Source: Fimbriimonadaceae bacterium
Lineage (GTDB): Bacteria > Armatimonadota > Fimbriimonadia > Fimbriimonadales > Fimbriimonadaceae
NCBI GenBank assembly: GCA_019638835.1
Contig: JAHBTC010000005.1
Span: forward strand, 1-49,315
Reading direction: 5' to 3'
Length of the DNA stretch: 49,315 nucleotides
Each line of letters opens with the position of its first letter. Position 1 is the stretch's first letter. The translations under genes and the position numbers were made by a program. Below the pieces are notes generated by a model, which saw only the letters and a program-made list of their open reading frames with translations, ran no database searches and was not told the origin of the DNA. This document shows, in pieces, positions 1,479 through 11,022 of this stretch.

Positions 1479-4400
1479 TTACCACTCGCCCGAAAGTGGG
1501 CGAATGCGCAGATTCCGGAACTCCACCAAGTCACCGTGGTCTTGAAGGACAATGTAGCCCTTCAGGTTCTTGGCGAAGCCGGGCCAATCCCGGAACTTGC
1601 TCGCCGCCAGCCGCCGGGCAAAGTCCATGGTCGTGATGTCATATCGCGCGGTCAGGTTTCCGTTGAGATATTGCTCTACGACAGGGCCCCGAGCAACGAT
1701 GCGAACCGAGTTCCACATGCCAGCGGGGTGGGCTACGCGCGCAGGGGGCGCAATCAGTGCATAGAGTGAGCCCGCGCTCGTGAGCGGGTTTCCACCGTCG
1801 GCATGTCCCTCATCATCGAGGATCTGCATCTCCGGCCCGGTTTCGTACGCCATATTTCGATCCGTGCTTGCGCGGTAAATGATGCCGCTATTGCCGTTGG
1901 GGCTGACTTTCCAGTCGAGTCGGAGTTCGAAGTCGCCGTACTCGCCGAGGATCATCAAGTCACCTCCTTCGACGCCGGGCGTGAACGTCAGGATTCCGTC
2001 CTTTGCCGACCAGCCGGCCGGTACGTGATCTTTGTGCCATCCGATGAAGTTGCTAAGGCTGTTCCCGTCGAAAAGCAACTTAAAGCCTTCACTTGCTTCT
2101 TCGGCCGTCAATTGATTGATCGGCGCTGGAGGTGCCGGTATGACTTCGTGGGTTCGTTCCGGCATACGATTCAGCGTGTACCAGGCTTCGGTCGACCAAA
2201 TCGCGTGACCTAATGTGCTGATAAACGACGGCATCACCCGGACATAGAAGACGTGACCCGGTTTGAGATTGGCCACTTCAAGGAAGATCTTCTTACGATC
2301 ATGGCTGATCGTCACCGAATCAACGGCTAATCGTTCGGAATCAACCTTCGGGCCACCGTATTGGGCAGTCGGCACGTACTTCCACTGCTCGACTTGATAG
2401 AAGCTGGAGTCTTGACCCAGATTCTCCGCCAGTGGCTCAGTGAGTTCGATCCCAATGCCGTTTTGATACGGCATCACCTTGAGCATCTCGAAGGTAGATT
2501 CAAAGTTGTAGCTCAACTTCTGCAAGCCGAACCACTTCTTGCCCTCTTGCGCCCAGTTCCCCGTGCTACCGATCCCGCCGACGTAAAGGGCTCCGTCCGG
2601 CCCCCAGTCCATCCGGTTGATGCCCGCCATCAGTCCTTGGGTGAATCGAAACACGCATCCCTGCAGCACTCCATCCACTTCTTCGACGAAAACGCGCTTT
2701 AGGCCACCATGGGTAACGTCGCCATGCAACATTTGGCCTTTATACGGACCATTGTTGATGTATGTCATTTGGCTCGGTGAGTTACCGATCTCGTTTTGCG
2801 GTAGCCAAACAACGGGCGGGGTGTCTTCGAGGTTGGCCGTGCCTTCCGGATCAACGGATCGATTCCCGTAGAACGCGCCTTCAATCAGTGGAAGAATCTT
2901 GCTACTTGGGAGCCAGTCACCTTGGTTGTCCGAAATAAAGATTCGGTTTTGATATCCGATTCCTATGCCGTTTGGAGTCCGTAAACCGGCGGCGATGAAT
3001 CGGTAGCTTCCGTCGCGATCGTCAATCGCGACCACACGGCCACGATCCGGGTTTTGGGGCTGCGTGCTACTTCCTCCTGGATTGATTGCCGTGGCCAAGT
3101 TTGCGTAGAACGAATGTCCCCGATGGACGAGACCGAATGCGAACTCGTGGAAATTGTCCGTAACGCCCCACCCGTTTGCCAGAGCGTAGTATTCGTCAAT
3201 CACCTCGTCGCCGTCGTGGTCAATGAGCTTCGTTAGTTCTTGCTTCTGGAGAACGTAGATGTCTCCGTTCACTACCTTGAGTCCGAGAGGTTCGGCGAGT
3301 CCGGCCGCAATCCTTTTCACTCTAGGGTGCTCGGCGAGTCCGCGCACTCGATCAACAATGTAAACCCCGCCGACCTCGTCCCAAGTGCAAACGACAAGAC
3401 GTCCGTCCGGTAGGAAGTCCATTCCTCCAATTCTTGGTTCAAATCCGGGTACGTCAATTGTGCGAAGAGTGAAGGAAGGATGCACACCCGCGAGCGGTTC
3501 GCGGTCTCCCGGACGAGATCGTTCTCCGCCAAACAAGACCCGCTTTTCTCCGGGGGCAGTGACGCGCACTTCGCCACTTTGGGCGGCAAGAGATTCCGTT
3601 GGAATCACGGAAAAGTCAGCATCACCGGGCTTCTTCCATTCGAGCAATAGTCGGGCGTCGGCTTCGTTATTGAAGTACTCAACTTCTATTGGGTGTTCAC
3701 CAACCGCGAGGTCAAGGTAGCCGCTTCGTGCTTCGGTTCCATGTAGGCCATCGTTATCGACTACTCGCTCATCACGGATTGATAGCCGAGAGCCATCGTC
3801 GCTGGAGAGTCGGAACTGGTATCGCCCAGCGACGGGCGCCTTGAGAAATCCGGTGAAGATCGCAAGAAACTTTTCATGGGGGTCGGCGAAGAAATCATTG
3901 CCGAGATCGAGGTTAGGTACGACAACGGAAATGTTTGGTGTTTGTCCTGCAACCAAGCGAGGAATTCGATTGATGTTGCGGTTCACCCAGTAAAGTCGCA
4001 TTGCGATTCCGGGTTCTCGCGCTTGGCTTGTCTCTTGAGAGACCGGCGCAGGCGTCGGAGACGGGAAGTCCATGTCGTCTTCCGGCGCACCGTAACGTAC
4101 AGCCAGCGTGGAACTACCGTTTCTCAAGTGCATCTGATTGTTGATCAGGTTGTCGCCCGCGAATAAAGTATTAGGCGCGAGATACTCCGAGTTCAAATCG
4201 AGTCGTAACTTCGTTCCACGAGGCAGTCCCTCCACGAAGTACGTGCGTACGAGACCAACGCTGCTCAATCGTGGATCAAGGGATTCGGGGCGTTCGCTGA
4301 CCCTTGCCCGACGACCTCCGGGCAGGTCCATCTCGTAGTGAAGTTCCACCCCGGAACCGAGATACTGGTAACCACGGAACCGAGGCTTGATCGGTGTCGT

Positions 4401-4715
4401 GGTGCCATTGTTGTCAAAGAACCATATCTCTCGTTCCGGTCGGTCTTTCTCAAAGGTAAGGCCGCGCGAGGTCGGTTGGGGACCGTGCTGAGCGGTGTAC
4501 ACGGCACCTTGGAAGTTGACATCGCCTTCCCATGCTTTGTAGAAGCCGCAGTTGGTCGCATCGTAAGCCACCCACAGGTTACGGCTAAGAGCAAGCGTTA
4601 CCATGCGTGCCCTTTGGTCGAGTACGGAGCGGAAAACCCATGGATCACGGGGTCGCTCAACCGCCATACCGGTTGTTGTGAGAACAAGGGTCGCAAGCCA
4701 GACACCAGAACGCAT
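1479..4715 (-). CDS. Secreted PA14 / beta-propeller / DUF1080 multidomain protein
   Basis: A 1078-residue protein with a short signal peptide (MRSGVWLATLVLTTTGMA). Residues about 50-220 form a region seen in front of such proteins in other phyla (CGFYKAWEGDVNFQG). Residues about 235-380 are a PA14 domain (RYQFRLSSDDGSRLSI, then WKKPGDADF). About 420-810 is a PQQ/sorbosone-dehydrogenase-like propeller (GGMDFLPDGRLVVCTWDEVG, NGIGIGYQNRIFISDNQGDW). About 878-1078 is a DUF1080 (3-keto-glycoside hydrolase, concanavalin-like) domain starting GFKLLFDGNSL. Such fusions are common in Planctomycetota, Verrucomicrobiota and Armatimonadota and are thought to act on oxidised or complex glycans outside the cytoplasm; the exact reaction is inferred. 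No cytochrome c CXXCH is visible. It is transcribed divergently from the BNR gene. Confidence 0.85.
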   Translation of the reverse strand: MRSGVWLATLVLTTTGMAVERPRDPWVFRSVLDQRARMVTLALSRNLWVAYDATNCGFYKAWEGDVNFQGAVYTAQHGPQPTSRGLTFEKDRPEREIWFFDNNGTTTPIKPRFRGYQYLGSGVELHYEMDLPGGRRARVSERPESLDPRLSSVGLVRTYFVEGLPRGTKLRLDLNSEYLAPNTLFAGDNLINNQMHLRNGSSTLAVRYGAPEDDMDFPSPTPAPVSQETSQAREPGIAMRLYWVNRNINRIPRLVAGQTPNISVVVPNLDLGNDFFADPHEKFLAIFTGFLKAPVAGRYQFRLSSDDGSRLSIRDERVVDNDGLHGTEARSGYLDLAVGEHPIEVEYFNNEADARLLLEWKKPGDADFSVIPTESLAAQSGEVRVTAPGEKRVLFGGERSRPGDREPLAGVHPSFTLRTIDVPGFEPRIGGMDFLPDGRLVVCTWDEVGGVYIVDRVRGLAEHPRVKRIAAGLAEPLGLKVVNGDIYVLQKQELTKLIDHDGDEVIDEYYALANGWGVTDNFHEFAFGLVHRGHSFYANLATAINPGGSSTQPQNPDRGRVVAIDDRDGSYRFIAAGLRTPNGIGIGYQNRIFISDNQGDWLPSSKILPLIEGAFYGNRSVDPEGTANLEDTPPVVWLPQNEIGNSPSQMTYINNGPYKGQMLHGDVTHGGLKRVFVEEVDGVLQGCVFRFTQGLMAGINRMDWGPDGALYVGGIGSTGNWAQEGKKWFGLQKLSYNFESTFEMLKVMPYQNGIGIELTEPLAENLGQDSSFYQVEQWKYVPTAQYGGPKVDSERLAVDSVTISHDRKKIFLEVANLKPGHVFYVRVMPSFISTLGHAIWSTEAWYTLNRMPERTHEVIPAPPAPINQLTAEEASEGFKLLFDGNSLSNFIGWHKDHVPAGWSAKDGILTFTPGVEGGDLMILGEYGDFELRLDWKVSPNGNSGIIYRASTDRNMAYETGPEMQILDDEGHADGGNPLTSAGSLYALIAPPARVAHPAGMWNSVRIVARGPVVEQYLNGNLTARYDITTMDFARRLAASKFRDWPGFAKNLKGYIVLQDHGDLVEFRNLRIRPLSGEW

Positions 4716-4776
4716 CAGTTCGATTATCCCCTACCTGAGAAACAAACGGGACTATCTCGGTGTAGGATGGAGGCAC

Positions 4777-7437
4777 ATGGCCGAAAACTCTTCGCCCCGC
4801 GTCCTCACCGCCGATGACCTAAAGCGCCTCAAGTGGCGGAGTGTCGGCCCTGCAGTGATGGGCGGACGTGTCTCTGATATCGCCTTTGCGCCCGGCAACT
4901 CACGCACTTTCTTCGCCGGCTATGCTACTGGCGGACTCTTCCGCACCAAAAACAACGGAATCTCGTTCGACTCCCTGTTCGACTTTGAAGAGAACACGAG
5001 CATCGGCTCGGTTGCGGTTGCCGACTTGGCTCCCGATTCCAGTGCGTGGACGGACGAAGAAAAGGACGGCAAGTCCAAGAAAGAACTGAAAGAAGCGGGG
5101 AAGGCCCGTGTGATCTGGGTGGGGACCGGCGAAGGTAACGGCCGAAACAGCAGTAGTTGGGGCAACGGAGTCTATCGCAGTACCGACGGTGGAAAGAAGT
5201 GGAAACACTGCGGTCTTGAAGACTCCCACGACATCCCTTGCATCGTCGTCGACCCCCGTGACGCGGAAACGTGTTACGTCGCTGCTCTCGGTCATCTTTG
5301 GGGCGCAAACGAAATGCGCGGCGTGTACAAAACGACGGACGGTGGTGAATCTTGGGAGAAGGTGCTTGGCGTAGACGAAAACAATGGGTGTTGCTGGCTT
5401 GCGATGCACCCCGATGAGCCGGACACTTTGTTTGCCGTTATGTACGAACGTCGGCGAACGGCTTACTCATTCCGAAGTGGAGGCACGAAAGGAGGGCTCT
5501 TCAAGTCCACTGATGCCGGAAAGTCCTGGACAAAGATCACAAACGGCTTGCCGAAGACTGCGGGCAGGATGTGCGTAGATATTTTCCGCGCCAATCCAAA
5601 AATTGTTTACGCCTTGATTGAAAGCAGCGAAGGTGGTTCGAACAGCATTCGCGACGATCGCAGCAAGTCGGGCGGGCTGTTCCGAAGCGAAGACGGCGGC
5701 GAGAGTTGGGAGAGGATGAGCGTACGCGTTCCTCGCGGCTTCTACTTTTGCAAGGTAAAGATTCACCCGACCGACGATCAGAAGATCTATCTGCCGGGTT
5801 GGGACGTGGAGGTGAGCACCGATGGCGGTCGCACCTTCCGTGGCGGATGGGGTGACAAAGCGCACGTTGATATGCATGCCTTCGCATTCGATCCGAATGA
5901 CCCGGATCACATTGTCTTCGGTAGCGATGGAGGCATCTACCAAACGTTCGATGGCGGTGAAAAGTGGCAGTTCCTCAATACGCTCGCTACGGGGCAGTTC
6001 TACAACATTGTGTTGGATGACAGTGACCCCTATCGCATCGCAGGTGGCCTTCAAGACAACGGAAGTTGGGTTGGTCCTTCAGGAACAAATCGAGAAAGCG
6101 AGGAGTACACCGATGGCACTCCCCGAACTGGTATTACGAATGCCGATTGGCAGTTTATCAACTGGGGAGATGGTTTCCACTGTGCGTTTGACCCTACTGA
6201 CAAGAACGTTTTGTATGCGGAGTGGCAAGGCGGGAATGTTGTGCGAACTCATCTGGATACGGGTGAAAGGCTTCACCTGGCACCTCAGCAAGCCGAAGGG
6301 GGAGTTCGATTCCGATTCAATTGGAATAGCCCATTCTTCGTAAGTCATCACAATCCCACGACTCTTTACCTTGGGGGCAACTACGTCTTCAAACTCACCG
6401 ATCGGGGAGACAAGTGGACACGAATCAGTAACGATCTCAGCCACAACGATCCGGCAACGATCGAAACCGTGGGGTCGTCAGCCGAAACGTTCGCCACCGT
6501 TGTGGCACTATCGGAATCCTCACTGAAGAAGGGACACCTTTGGGCGGGAACTGATGACGGCCGAATTCATCGGACCACGAATGACGGTAAGGCGTGGAGC
6601 GAGATCACTCCCGATGCGGTGAGTGGCATGTACGTGTCTCGCATCGAGTCATCTCACTTCGATGTGGAACGAGCATATGCGAGCGTGGACGGACATCGTA
6701 GCGATTGGATGGATCCGATGATTCTGGCCACTCATGACGGGGGCGCAAACTGGCTGGAGGTTACGGGTGATCTTCCGTCCGGTCGCAGCGTGAAGGTCGT
6801 TCGCGAAGATATGTCGAATGAACAAGTGCTGTATTGCGGTACCGAGAACGGCGTTTACGTTAGCGTGGACCAAGGCCAATCCTGGATACGGATGAATGCG
6901 AAAACACTTCCGCATTGTCCGGTAGATGATATTCAGCAACACACGCGAGAGCGCGACCTTGTCCTCGGTACGCATGGTCGATCCATATACATCTTGGATG
7001 ACGCGGGCTTCCTTAGCGAATGTACTCCGGAAAACCTTGAAAAGCCGCTTCACGTCTTTTCATGTCGACCCGCAAAGCCGAAGTTTATGCTTTGGTATCA
7101 GGGCTTGTGGCAGGATCAAGTTTTTCGGGCGGAAAATCCTCCGAAGTTCTCAATCATCACGTATTGGCTTCGTGAGTCAGTTTCTGACCCGGTAAAGATC
7201 TCCATCAAGAACGACAAAGGGCTAGAGGTGTATGAGACTTCCGGGAGTGCCTTTGCGGGAGTCAATCGTGTGACTTGGGATTGTCAGCCAAAGGAGATTA
7301 TGAGGCGATTTGACCAAGGTGAAGAACCATGGCATCCGTTCTTCGTAGCTCCCGGCACTTACAAAGTCGACGTTACGTGCGGTGACCTGAAGTCCTTCAC
7401 GAGCCTAGAAGTTAGACCAGCTTTAGCAAAAGACTGA
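4777..7437 (+). CDS. BNR/Asp-box repeat (VPS10/sortilin-like propeller) protein
   Basis: An 886-residue protein rich in Asp-box turns: STDGGKKW, TTDGGESW, STDAGKSW, SEDGGESW, STDGGRTF, TFDGGEKW, THDGGANW and SVDQGQSW. These imply two consecutive beta-propellers like the VPS10/sortilin and exo-sialidase-like folds. The last ~100 residues look like a FlgD-type Ig domain (PFFVAPGTYKVDVTCGDLKS). The frame is open upstream to 4603, but those codons lie antisense to the start of the neighbouring gene. I chose ATG 4777 because GGAGG precedes it by 3 bases and protein-like sequence begins there. From this start there is no signal peptide, unusual for a family that is mostly exported. Likely role: binding of a protein or glycan, unknown partner. 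Confidence 0.8.
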   Translation: MAENSSPRVLTADDLKRLKWRSVGPAVMGGRVSDIAFAPGNSRTFFAGYATGGLFRTKNNGISFDSLFDFEENTSIGSVAVADLAPDSSAWTDEEKDGKSKKELKEAGKARVIWVGTGEGNGRNSSSWGNGVYRSTDGGKKWKHCGLEDSHDIPCIVVDPRDAETCYVAALGHLWGANEMRGVYKTTDGGESWEKVLGVDENNGCCWLAMHPDEPDTLFAVMYERRRTAYSFRSGGTKGGLFKSTDAGKSWTKITNGLPKTAGRMCVDIFRANPKIVYALIESSEGGSNSIRDDRSKSGGLFRSEDGGESWERMSVRVPRGFYFCKVKIHPTDDQKIYLPGWDVEVSTDGGRTFRGGWGDKAHVDMHAFAFDPNDPDHIVFGSDGGIYQTFDGGEKWQFLNTLATGQFYNIVLDDSDPYRIAGGLQDNGSWVGPSGTNRESEEYTDGTPRTGITNADWQFINWGDGFHCAFDPTDKNVLYAEWQGGNVVRTHLDTGERLHLAPQQAEGGVRFRFNWNSPFFVSHHNPTTLYLGGNYVFKLTDRGDKWTRISNDLSHNDPATIETVGSSAETFATVVALSESSLKKGHLWAGTDDGRIHRTTNDGKAWSEITPDAVSGMYVSRIESSHFDVERAYASVDGHRSDWMDPMILATHDGGANWLEVTGDLPSGRSVKVVREDMSNEQVLYCGTENGVYVSVDQGQSWIRMNAKTLPHCPVDDIQQHTRERDLVLGTHGRSIYILDDAGFLSECTPENLEKPLHVFSCRPAKPKFMLWYQGLWQDQVFRAENPPKFSIITYWLRESVSDPVKISIKNDKGLEVYETSGSAFAGVNRVTWDCQPKEIMRRFDQGEEPWHPFFVAPGTYKVDVTCGDLKSFTSLEVRPALAKD

Positions 7438-7486: not shown

Positions 7487-8158
7487 ATGACGCGCCAGCA
7501 GTTCGACGACAACCTCGAGGAGATTCGAGCCCTCATTCACCGCATGGGAGACTGTGTGGTGGAGATGATCGATCTCGGGGTTCGTTGTGCCTTAGATCCG
7601 GACCCCCAGTTGGTGCAACGAGTCCGGAATCTGGATAACGTCGTGGATGATAGCGAGCGCCGAGCGATGGAACTCGTCGTCGAATCAATGCTCCGGCAGT
7701 CTCCCGTTGCTTCTGACTTGCGATTTCTCACCTCAACTTTGAGCATCATCGGTGAACTTGAGCAGGCGGGTGATGACGCCGAGAAGATGGCGAGTCGGGC
7801 ACACCGCATCCAGAGCGACTTGCCCGACCAGTTCCGCACTATCCTCTATGACTTGGCGCAGGAAGTAGCCGAGATTCTTCGGAGTGCGATCAGCCTTTAC
7901 GATCACTACACTGATGCCCTCGCCGACCGGATCCTCACCCTGGATGACAACGTAGATAGTACTTACAAGTCTGCGCGTCGGCAGTTCATCACGATTATGG
8001 ACGAGCAACCAGGCTCGGCGCGAACGCTTTTCCGTTGCATCAGCGTGTTCCATGCATTGGAACATGCGGCTGATCGAGCCGTCGAAATCACCAAACGGCT
8101 ACGGATTCACTATCGGGGATACGATGAACCGGTCCCGGATACCGAGCCCGACCTTTAA
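7487..8158 (+). CDS. phoU: PhoU-family phosphate signalling protein
   Basis: A 223-residue all-helical cytoplasmic protein with two PhoU repeats, the normal family size (about 220-240). Acidic metal-binding-type motifs recur in each half (NLDNVVDDSERRAMEL near residues 47-62, TLDDNVDSTYKSARRQ near 148-163), and SIIGELEQAGDDAEKMASRA is the family's typical helix. PhoU links the PstSCAB transporter to the PhoR-PhoB two-component system and keeps phosphate genes off when phosphate is plentiful. No pst or pho genes are next to it here. The ATG at 7487 follows CCAGGA closely and lies just beyond a strong dyad that may control it. Confidence 0.9.
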   Translation: MTRQQFDDNLEEIRALIHRMGDCVVEMIDLGVRCALDPDPQLVQRVRNLDNVVDDSERRAMELVVESMLRQSPVASDLRFLTSTLSIIGELEQAGDDAEKMASRAHRIQSDLPDQFRTILYDLAQEVAEILRSAISLYDHYTDALADRILTLDDNVDSTYKSARRQFITIMDEQPGSARTLFRCISVFHALEHAADRAVEITKRLRIHYRGYDEPVPDTEPDL

Positions 8159-8235: not shown

Positions 8236-11022
8236 ATGCCTGAATCTGGGACGAAGTTAAGCGGAATCGCGGCGTGGGCCGAAGCATGGCGGGCGAGCGA
8301 TTCAGCAACGATTGCGGAACTGGGAGAGCAATTGGCTTCCGCGCCTGACCCTGACGAAGTCCGGAGAATGGCGCTGAAATGGGCATCTAGCGATGCGCGG
8401 AGCGAACGATTCCTTGGTCGCACTTTACTTCAGAACCTTGCGGATGATGCCGGAGATGAAGATGAACAAAGGCTGCGTTCCCTCGTACCCTGGCATGTAG
8501 CGCTCAATGCCGGAATCGTCCCAACGGCGCAAAGCGGCGACTTTATTGTCTGTCTGGCCGCACAGCAGTTGTCGAACGTCGGTTTCAGTCTCCTCATGGC
8601 TCACTCGCGATGCCCGGTGCAGATCGTCGACGTCAGCGAAAACCAGTTTTGGACGGCATTTGCCTCCCTGTACATCAGTGTCGTTCCTGCCCCTTTACGT
8701 GACCAACTAATCGCTTTCGGTGTAGCCGTACCTCAGGATGAAACGACTCCGGCGCTTTTCCCGCAGACACCGGCCGCCGATTCACCTGCTGAATCCGGGG
8801 AAGCCGAGTCGATCGAAAGGGGACAAGAAGAGGCCGATTCAACATTTGTTCAAACAGTCTGGGAAGCCCGGGACAAACCAATCGTTGTTGAAGACGAGAA
8901 CGATACAGAGTCAGCGGTTTCCAGCGACGAAATCGGTGCCGACTTTGAAGGTGACCCCGAATCGACCGCGACCGAAGACGAAGAAGGATTTGCCGAAGCC
9001 GTCGAGGACGAACCTACAATTCCGCTTTGGAACCGATTTTCTATTGAGGAAATGCGAACGCTTAGAGCGTGTCCCATCGGCGAGTCTGCCGATGGCGTCG
9101 AGTTCCTCGTTGCCGCGCCAGCCGAATCTACGGCGCTTGCTCGTCTCAGCGAACTCGTAGGTGGGGAGGCAAGAATCCGTGTTGTTGGATTAGAGATCGT
9201 CAATGATGCGTGGCGAGAGCAATTTGGCGAAGATATGGTTGCGCAGCAGATTATCGCGCAACTCGAGGAAACGGAGGCGCTAACTTCAATCGAAATTGCC
9301 GACGACGAAGAAGACATTAGCTCCTTGCTTGAAGAGATTTCTCAGGAACTTGAGTCAGAAGACGACGAAGAGATTGACGATCAGTTAGTCGAAGAAGTCG
9401 AAACGGCGATGACCGCTCAAGAAGAGCCACTAAAGTCTGAGCCTGAAAGTGAATTCGAACCGATCGAAACACCGTCGGGACCAGACCCCGCCGCTGTAGC
9501 ACTGGTGCCGAGTGGCCTCGCATGGTTTGCACGGGCATGCCCTTACCGCTTAGAAGGCGATACGCTTGTATGTTGGGTGCAGGAGCCGTACGACGAGACG
9601 TTACTCTCGGCGATTGAGCGACGTTCCGGGCACTCACTTGTAGTTGAGCCAATGCCGACTCCTGAAGTGATGGAGGCACTGCATCAAGCATACGGACAGG
9701 AACTGGCGGGCGTCATTGAACCACTGATGCCCCGTGCCGTCGCCCCGGCTAAACAGGAAGAACCAACAACAGATGCGAGTCCTGAAATTGAGGACCAAAC
9801 CGGGGCCATCAGTTCAGTTGAGAGCCAAGTCGATACGGAAAAGGCTTCAGAGGATGAACAAGTTGTCGAGTCTGAAGTGTCGAAGTTTGATCAAGATCCG
9901 TCAGGACTGGACGATCTAGTTGAGTCAGTTGACTCCGTGACGCTGACAGAGGAAGACTTTGAACCTGAAGCAGAGGGTGATTTTGACAACAGTAGTGAAT
10001 CCGCGCCGGCGATCGTATTCGCTGAACCGACACCTGAGGTGGAGATTGCAGGTACGCCGAAGTCATCGCTAGATCAGCTACTAGATGACCTTGATTTAGA
10101 CCCTCCGAAACCACCCATCGAAACGGAGTGGCGACCTAAACTTTCGGCTCCTGAACCAGAATTTCTTACGGAAGACTTTCAGCAACCTGAATCTCCGGCG
10201 GAAGAAGTAGTTCCTTCACCTGAGATTGAAGCCGAGCAACCGGCGGCAGAGTCAGTTTCCGAAGACGCAACCGAAATCGAAGCGGAGGTTCCGGAGATCG
10301 TTGAACCTGAGCCTGAACCAATTGTCTCAGTACAGCCAGACCTTCCTAAAGCGGAGCCACCGAATCCAAACGATCCGTTTACTACCGTTGCAACCGACGA
10401 AGCCCGACGGGCTTGGGACGAGTTCATGGCGACAAACGGAAACAAGGCGAACCGAGCAGAGGCGCAGGTGGATGCAGTGATGGGCCGCCTAAACCGAGAG
10501 ATTGCTCTTGATGAGGTGGCTGCAAAGGCCGTTGAAGGTTCTAACTCTGACGATGAGGATCCAAATGACGATTCACCAGTTTCGCAGGAAGAGACCGCTT
10601 GGTCCACTGAGGACGTGGAAGAGGCAAGGATCGGTCAAAGGCACGCTGACTCGGTACAACGTTTAATGGGGCACAGCACTCTCCCTGGTCCTGAAATCTT
10701 GCAGAAGGTAAGCCGCGAAATGGCGATTCAGAACCAAATTGTGCCGATTACGATTGAGGAGGGCACGCTCCACCTCATTGGATCGCAACCCATTGCGCCG
10801 ATTGATGTTCGAGAACTTTCGAACGAAATCGGAATGCCGTTACAACTCCATCTTGGAACGCCGGAAGCAGTAAACCGCCTGATCACAAAGGCGTATCCTG
10901 AAACGTCAGGGGAAGAGACGGTTGTTCACCAAATGCGGCTAGAAGAGGGTCGCAAACAGGAAGAAGCGGCTCAACAGTCGTGGCTTGACAAACTGATGAA
11001 CCGCGTCAATAAGAGCGGTTAG
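8236..11022 (+). CDS. Acidic protein with four T2SSE_N/MshEN-like repeats and no ATPase
   Basis: A 928-residue cytoplasmic protein without signal peptide or membrane segment. Four divergent copies of the fold found at the N-terminus of GspE/PilB-type ATPases can be seen, at about residues 80-152, 262-334, 419-490 and 817-890. The third is clearest: ALVPSGLAWFARACPY, then GDTLVCWVQEPYDETLLSAI, ending in an (A/E)xxxxYG helix. The repeats are joined by long, strongly acidic, Pro/Glu/Ser-rich linkers, the longest about 325 residues. No Walker A or B motif is present, so it is not a secretion ATPase. The RLG-type motif that binds c-di-GMP in MshEN is not evident. I chose ATG 8236 over the in-frame TTG 8230 because GAGG lies 6 bases upstream. 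Role unknown; a scaffold or regulator of type IV pilus or type II secretion is inferred. Confidence 0.75.
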   Translation: MPESGTKLSGIAAWAEAWRASDSATIAELGEQLASAPDPDEVRRMALKWASSDARSERFLGRTLLQNLADDAGDEDEQRLRSLVPWHVALNAGIVPTAQSGDFIVCLAAQQLSNVGFSLLMAHSRCPVQIVDVSENQFWTAFASLYISVVPAPLRDQLIAFGVAVPQDETTPALFPQTPAADSPAESGEAESIERGQEEADSTFVQTVWEARDKPIVVEDENDTESAVSSDEIGADFEGDPESTATEDEEGFAEAVEDEPTIPLWNRFSIEEMRTLRACPIGESADGVEFLVAAPAESTALARLSELVGGEARIRVVGLEIVNDAWREQFGEDMVAQQIIAQLEETEALTSIEIADDEEDISSLLEEISQELESEDDEEIDDQLVEEVETAMTAQEEPLKSEPESEFEPIETPSGPDPAAVALVPSGLAWFARACPYRLEGDTLVCWVQEPYDETLLSAIERRSGHSLVVEPMPTPEVMEALHQAYGQELAGVIEPLMPRAVAPAKQEEPTTDASPEIEDQTGAISSVESQVDTEKASEDEQVVESEVSKFDQDPSGLDDLVESVDSVTLTEEDFEPEAEGDFDNSSESAPAIVFAEPTPEVEIAGTPKSSLDQLLDDLDLDPPKPPIETEWRPKLSAPEPEFLTEDFQQPESPAEEVVPSPEIEAEQPAAESVSEDATEIEAEVPEIVEPEPEPIVSVQPDLPKAEPPNPNDPFTTVATDEARRAWDEFMATNGNKANRAEAQVDAVMGRLNREIALDEVAAKAVEGSNSDDEDPNDDSPVSQEETAWSTEDVEEARIGQRHADSVQRLMGHSTLPGPEILQKVSREMAIQNQIVPITIEEGTLHLIGSQPIAPIDVRELSNEIGMPLQLHLGTPEAVNRLITKAYPETSGEETVVHQMRLEEGRKQEEAAQQSWLDKLMNRVNKSG

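Follow-up and report, generated by a model that had tools for sequence, protein, structure and literature searches.

The MshEN domain (Pfam PF05157) is usually read as a receptor for cyclic di-GMP (c-di-GMP) placed ahead of a motor ATPase. In this work we analysed a 49,315-nucleotide stretch of a Fimbriimonadaceae genome of the phylum Armatimonadota (assembly GCA_019638835.1, contig JAHBTC010000005.1, positions 1 to 49,315; hereafter the window), in which one gene encodes a 928-residue protein carrying four copies, D1 to D4, of the C-terminal half of this domain, MshEN_C. The domain, also named GSPII or N1, is present in PilB, GspE and MshE (structures 5htl, 8pdk, 2d28, 4pht, 2bh1 and 7lko), and the fold of its C-half is like that of each copy. 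Unlike these proteins, the four-copy protein has no N-terminal half (MshEN_N) before D2 to D4 and no T2SSE ATPase domain, and its copies are spread over a disordered chain. According to the parts available of the papers cited here by PMC number, the role of MshEN as a c-di-GMP receptor is established (PMC5013675), and the ligand is bound chiefly in the four-helix MshEN_N half, through two 24-residue motifs (PMC5013675, PMC11731258). Both the occurrence of MshEN away from a motor (PMC5013675) and that of multiple copies in one protein (Thermus PilF, PMC11731258) are already known. NfrB, also matched in NCBIfam at a score below cut-off, and other motor-less MshEN fusions (PMC5013675) carry the domain away from a traffic ATPase, as here; they join it to glycosyltransferase, receiver, HD-GYP, CheA/CheX, cyclase or kinase domains, whereas nothing recognisable accompanies it in the four-copy protein. 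Thermus PilF has three GSPII domains, but keeps the c-di-GMP-binding N-halves and the ATPase. The landmark proteins HubP and FimV (PMC11236974) are an analogy, not kin: they are large, recruit motility machines and have an extended cytoplasmic part with poor AlphaFold models, but they possess LysM and FimV/TPR domains, and Pfam finds no LysM or TPR in our protein. In the accessible portions of the open-licence literature, four bare MshEN_C halves on their own and the MinD-linked relatives described below were not found, nor was a co-mention of MshEN and Armatimonad.

We tentatively read the protein as a non-enzymatic, multivalent docking scaffold, perhaps tethered to the membrane, for pilus, secretion or flagellar machinery, and give this reading somewhat less than an even chance. 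The gene and its parts are as follows (all on the plus strand).

8236..11022: whole gene, four-copy MshEN_C protein, 928 residues, net charge about -150
8257..8448: residues 8-71, four predicted helices ahead of D1, with no recognisable c-di-GMP-binding MshEN_N (models, motif scan)
8470..8691: D1, residues 79-152, predicted MshEN_C fold (23.8 bits; MshE 73-145, Z 9.7)
8692..9018: linker 1, acidic, residues 153-261, net charge -28
9019..9243: D2, residues 262-336, predicted MshEN_C fold, weakest by sequence (12.7 bits; GspE 12-78, Z 8.7; XpsE 77-149, Z 8.0)
9244..9480: linker 2, acidic, residues 337-415, net charge -29
9481..9708: D3, residues 416-491, predicted MshEN_C fold (67.0 bits)
9709..10368: linker 3, acidic and proline-rich, residues 492-711, net charge -53
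10369..10539: conserved predicted helical stretch, residues 712-768 (models, orthologue alignment)
10606..10665: conserved predicted helix ahead of D4, residues 791-810 (models, orthologue alignment)
10684..10911: D4, residues 817-892, predicted MshEN_C fold, best structural match (41.8 bits; MshE 71-145, Z 10.7)
10972..11019: C-terminal tail, conserved, residues 913-928, amphipathic and containing basic residues, perhaps a membrane anchor

Pfam MshEN matches the protein at 76.1 bits (cut-off 23.1) over three stretches, the best of which begins at profile position 12 of 90. D3 and D4 each exceed the curated cut-off on their own, and the only other Pfam row is insignificant. An independent profile, built from 40 domains of other proteins and leaving out the protein and its orthologues, recovered all four copies with the bit scores listed above; the best score in 200 shuffles of the protein was 4.9 bits. 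The four divergent GspE/PilB N-domain copies claimed in an earlier note, made from the sequence alone, were thus found again in the same places. In a full-length AlphaFold model, obtained from a three-sequence input (mean predicted local distance difference test score, pLDDT, 45), D1, D3 and D4 adopt the order helix-strand-strand-helix-strand-helix (alpha-beta-beta-alpha-beta-alpha), and a second model, of residues 1-346 (mean pLDDT 58), gives the same order for D1 and D2. The modelled topology is common to all four segments, which by these models are not unrelated folds. By structural alignment D4 was superposed on MshE 71-145 (2.5 Å over 74 residues), D1 on MshE 73-145 (2.2 Å over 71) and D2 on GspE 12-78 from the GspE-GspL complex (2.0 Å over 63), with XpsE 77-149 as second match for D2. 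Because these segments are the C-half of the N-domain, each copy corresponds to MshEN_C only: the fold assignment of the earlier note holds for this half and not for the whole N-domain, and the protein has the MshEN_C fold of the GspE/PilB N1 docking domains. The structural-alignment lists contain no PF05157-family row for D3, which is thus hardly probed by fold; its assignment rests on sequence, where it has the highest bits, and on the modelled topology. A sequence search of solved structures with the three-row alignment returned a chance row only, an anti-CRISPR fragment at E 0.72. The linkers, described earlier as acidic, disordered and up to about 325 residues long, are indeed acidic, but the one between D3 and D4 is not wholly disordered, with helices predicted at 714-767 and 791-810 that are conserved in orthologues.

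The distribution of the protein was examined with a profile of the three orthologues (997 positions) searched over 291 Armatimonadota genomes. Matches were obtained in 65 of them, and covered more than a quarter of the model in the source genome and two genomes of the same genus only; the 288 others gave no comparable match, those that matched doing so over one domain, at times with the adjoining linker. The two congeneric genomes (G001 and G002) encode syntenic orthologues of 1002 and 1025 residues with all four copies; named copies of these orthologues are those of CP021424.1 (Armatimonadetes bacterium Uphvl-Ar2) and UBA2785. Identity between our protein and that of G001 is 58% in D3, 45% in D2, 44% in D4 and 31% in D1, with values of 23-36% for the three linkers. 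Between G001 and G002 the ratio of nonsynonymous to synonymous substitution rates (dN/dS) is 0.05-0.08 in D1 to D3, against 0.21-0.28 for linkers 1 and 3; it was not computable for linker 2, and D4 and the tail show no amino-acid change. At the sequence level, linkers 1 and 3 are thus under weaker purifying selection than D1-D3. Outside the genus, the closest layout seen is that of a 394-residue protein of G015 (L136:4883-6067), in which an acidic linker carries two MshEN_C copies and the tail is basic.

Conservation of the four-copy, ATPase-free layout in two orthologues, together with the low dN/dS of the domains relative to the linkers, makes a standing regulator or platform plausible, as the earlier note had suggested; the connection that it proposed with type IV pilus or type II secretion systems is supported by the fold and not by the gene neighbours, which are PhoU and carbohydrate enzymes. 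Each MshEN_C module would act as a protein-docking head, as in GspE, which binds the cytoplasmic domain of GspL, and in PilB, which binds PilZ. D2 and D4 align to GspE solved with GspL (4pht), and D1 and D4 to EpsE solved with EpsL (2bh1) and to PilB solved with PilZ (7lkm/7lko), where the half-domain is one part of the PilB fragment. As GspE 12-78 is a bare MshEN_C in these alignments, the half-domain is able to exist without its partner half. According to the part available of PMC11656802, contact with the stator is likely made by the N1 domain, as observed in homologues of the type II secretion system. The heads might bind MinD-type ATPases or components of inner-membrane machines (GspL/PilM-type stators, PilZ-like adaptors), the flexible acidic linkers would allow one molecule to hold several partners together, and the tail could tether the scaffold to the membrane. 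Such a scaffold would recruit motor ATPases or compete with them while driving nothing itself, its likely job being to bring pili, secretion machines or flagella together in the cell, to position them or to cap their number. Candidate partners in the source genome are four MshEN-type motor ATPases and FliM, and PilM matches over cut-off lie on four of its contigs. D3, moreover, most resembles MshEN_C domains whose genes adjoin those of MinD/ParA-type ATPases.

Further ATPase-free MshEN_C proteins are encoded in relatives and in the source genome itself. We examined 19, selected from the matches of the phylum searches, in which a long acidic chain carries a single MshEN_C close to its C-terminus; one is encoded in the source genome (contig C112, L068:8887-9861), and the loci are L068, L070-L072, L074, L075, L078, L080, L126-L129, L132-L135 and L137-L139. 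Kept apart from this set were the proteins of G004 (L073) and G015 (L136), those fused to a MinD-like domain (L077 and L079 by Pfam; L130, L131, L141 and L143 by eye) and four with a longer MshEN domain (L083, L084, L140 and L142). A MinD/ParA-type ATPase gene adjoins all 19 single-copy genes. Its P-loop conforms to the strict pattern [STG]GKGGxGK[ST] in 14 cases; the others read NGKGGVGKT (L126), SAKGGVGKT or NCKGGTGKS (L135, L137) or, with a changed lysine, SGKGGVGQS (L139) and NQKGGVGRT (L075). As controls, the strict motif occurred in one of the 30 MshEN loci L036-L065, mostly of motor ATPases, in an open frame of only 199 residues, and was not seen at any of the 19 loci with a recognised motor Walker A. 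It is also absent from 20 kb around the L073 gene, whose product has one copy found, at 138-210, and one FliM-like motif at 390, and from 11 kb around L136, whose two-copy product has no FliM-like motif. At least one FliM-like motif of the LSxxEIxALL type (e.g. LSEDEIAALL) occurs in 18 of the 19 proteins, with up to nine in G164 and none in G023, against about 0.02 per protein in shuffles and matches in 11 of 518 other frames; since the pattern was shaped on the same proteins, this count describes and does not test. The FliM N-terminus resembles MSEILSQAEIEALL or MADILSPEEIEALL in five of six loci of relatives, and in the sixth (L148) it is hidden by the frame start. Of 41 genomes, 38 encode FliM, the source genome among them; in G001 (G001:C1:1971952-1972517) FliM is split over two frames, by a frameshift or a sequencing error. 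In the available parts of the cited papers, the EIDALL motif of FliM is bound by CheY-P (PMC9126983), the FliM N-terminus is bound by FlhG (PMC12826062), and the FlhG site for it is common to FlrA (PMC11236974). An acidic MshEN_C protein and its MinD/ParA-type neighbour (e.g. L068:8887-10689) are possibly an FlhG-like placement pair.

Several observations were made around these loci. Upstream of the C112 pair, L068:2294-8835 holds a cluster of MoxR-type AAA, DUF58, BatA/vWA and vWA/GATase-like genes (Pfam), and a similar large gene precedes the MshEN_C/MinD-type pair in several relatives. Contig C122 of the source genome (L069:8322-9812) encodes a vWA-domain protein with an MshEN-like domain at its end. 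In the fusions L130:3204-6433 and L131:6252-9481 an N-terminal MshEN_C precedes a MinD-like part with the altered P-loop GAKGGVGTT; a gene near the L130 fusion is a flagellin by Pfam, and its L131 counterpart looks alike.

Several points weigh against the scaffold reading. The partners named above are candidates, and docking to PilM/GspL, PilB/GspE, PilZ or MinD-type proteins is proposed by analogy. Confidence in the AlphaFold models is low to medium. None of the eight window neighbours submitted to Pfam was recognised as a pilus, secretion, flagellar or MinD gene, and the strict MinD P-loop motif is absent from the window and from the two orthologous 20-kb loci; this pattern misses 5 of the 19 relatives, so that variants are possible at our locus. 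A stretch of linker 2 from residue 356, DDEEDISSLLEE, is FliM-like by eye but not significant: the best score has p 0.14 in our protein, and 0.25 and 0.21 in the orthologues. Regarding the tail, the last 20 residues have a net charge of 0, and 0.9% of the internal 20-mers of the protein are equally amphipathic and basic (0 in the orthologues). Tails similar to this one, SWLDKLMNRVNKSG, occur in some relatives and in several MinD-type neighbours, e.g. MLDRLKNRFSKS, and no such amphipathic tail is found in the C112 protein of the source genome or its G001 and G002 counterparts. From the sequence, tethering by this conserved tail is a guess with some support.

Among the other explanations, a decayed or truncated motor ATPase gene could be expected in that an MshEN domain usually precedes a motor. 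Pfam finds no PF00437 (T2SSE ATPase domain) in the protein, and none of the 13 T2SSE matches in the genome lies on its contig (C153); no motor was therefore lost through a frameshift, a possibility that the earlier note had raised, and its description as a standalone protein without ATPase agrees with this result and with the layout kept in the two orthologues. The four copies, the intact orthologues and the overall dN/dS of 0.18 further reduce the probability of decay to practically nil, and we ruled this explanation out. That the protein receives c-di-GMP, as the nucleotide-signal option of the earlier note would have it, is in line with the known receptor function of MshEN (PMC5013675, part available) and with the four helices that precede D1. 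The half that mainly binds the ligand is missing before D2-D4: the models show no four-helix bundle there, and the preceding stretches are acidic and disordered or form a single helix. Helices 8-71 align weakly (Z <5) to unrelated helical chains and not to MshEN_N, structural alignment being a poor test of them, and the published relaxed c-di-GMP motif has 0 matches in the protein and its two orthologues, a weak test in itself as many ATPase controls also fail it. An MshEN_N with two 24-residue motifs was thus not found, and c-di-GMP reception, disfavoured by the lack of a motif match and by the published location of binding in MshEN_N, appears highly improbable. It may truly occur in the ATPase-free branch with a longer MshEN domain (L083:9289-10596, L140:4534-5841, L142:5803-6366 and L084:9786-10337), encoded beside MinD-type P-loop genes; the L084 protein has two relaxed motifs and the L142 protein one.

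Two further explanations concern partners. The protein could act with PhoU in phosphate signalling, MshEN_C being reused as a generic protein-binding domain, since the gene immediately before it, in the same orientation, encodes PhoU both in the window and at the two orthologous loci. However, 13 PhoU neighbourhoods outside the genus, scanned over all frames of at least 60 residues, hold no MshEN_C-like frame (at L190 and L191 the PhoU frame was left unmarked, a longer overlapping frame being kept), and as the upstream MFS, PA14 and VPS10-like block is syntenic as a whole, the closeness of PhoU may be plain synteny. To our knowledge no PhoU partner has an MshEN_C fold, and we regard this explanation as improbable. 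Alternatively, the protein would belong to a MinD/FlhG-type placement module seen in its relatives, in which MshEN_C proteins act together with the MinD-like ATPase encoded beside them; it would be a second, multi-headed client or landmark of that ATPase, encoded at another place. The constant adjacency of MinD/ParA-type genes to the 19 single-copy genes, the fusions of MshEN_C to MinD-like domains, and the binding of FliM N-termini by MinD-type FlhG (PMC12826062, PMC11236974, parts available) together with the FliM-like motifs of the 18 proteins speak for such a module. Like our protein, the single-copy proteins combine MshEN_C with long acidic disorder; in sequence they are closest to D3, which, outside its orthologues, gives its top alignment scores against MinD-linked MshEN_C (142 for G005 and 124 for C112 of the source genome). 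In a domain tree, D1, D2, D3 and D4 of the three orthologues each form a firmly supported group of their own, and D3 is nearest by path to the MinD-linked rows, but without firm support in this tree of only 77 columns with many open forks. Against this module, two features of the single-copy group are missing from the four-copy protein, the strict motif revealing no MinD gene next to it and no FliM-like motif exceeding chance, and the two separate ATPases and one fusion scanned fall below the NCBIfam MinD cut-offs. We infer a place for the protein in this network, and consider its membership of the module unlikely, with some real weight.

The coding frame is intact, with an ATG at 8236, a stop ending at 11022, 928 codons and no internal stops, and a GAGG stretch stands immediately 5' of the ATG. 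The overall G+C of the gene is similar to that of its neighbours, while its third-position G+C is 0.51 versus 0.59-0.65 in the neighbours. A promoter and terminator scan turned up nothing and is uninformative. The upstream neighbour is:

7487..8158: PhoU gene, plus strand, directly upstream and in the same orientation

By Pfam, the eight neighbours include PhoU and carbohydrate enzymes. The upstream order transporter, PA14/3-keto-disaccharide hydrolase protein, VPS10-like protein and PhoU is kept in the orthologous loci, and the downstream genes differ; neighbours of the orthologues were matched by eye, and the annotation of the window reaches 18.6 kb. Two large divergent genes of this block, at 1479-4715 and 4603-7437, encode the PA14/3-keto-disaccharide hydrolase protein and the VPS10/sortilin-like protein, their longest frames overlapping at 4603-4715.

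For the Armatimonadota, a poorly studied phylum with very little cell biology, a broader proposal is that the bare MshEN_C is a general docking module of a MinD/FlhG-type placement system for pili, secretion machines and flagella, in which the single-headed proteins with FliM-like peptides would be direct partners of the ATPase and the four-headed protein a membrane-tethered hub where the machines are brought together; as a whole we hold it to be rather doubtful. The C-half, used four times without the receptor half or a motor, offers a natural test of what this half binds, and the relatives that combine FliM-like motifs with a MinD-type neighbour suggest that several surface machines could share a single placement logic.

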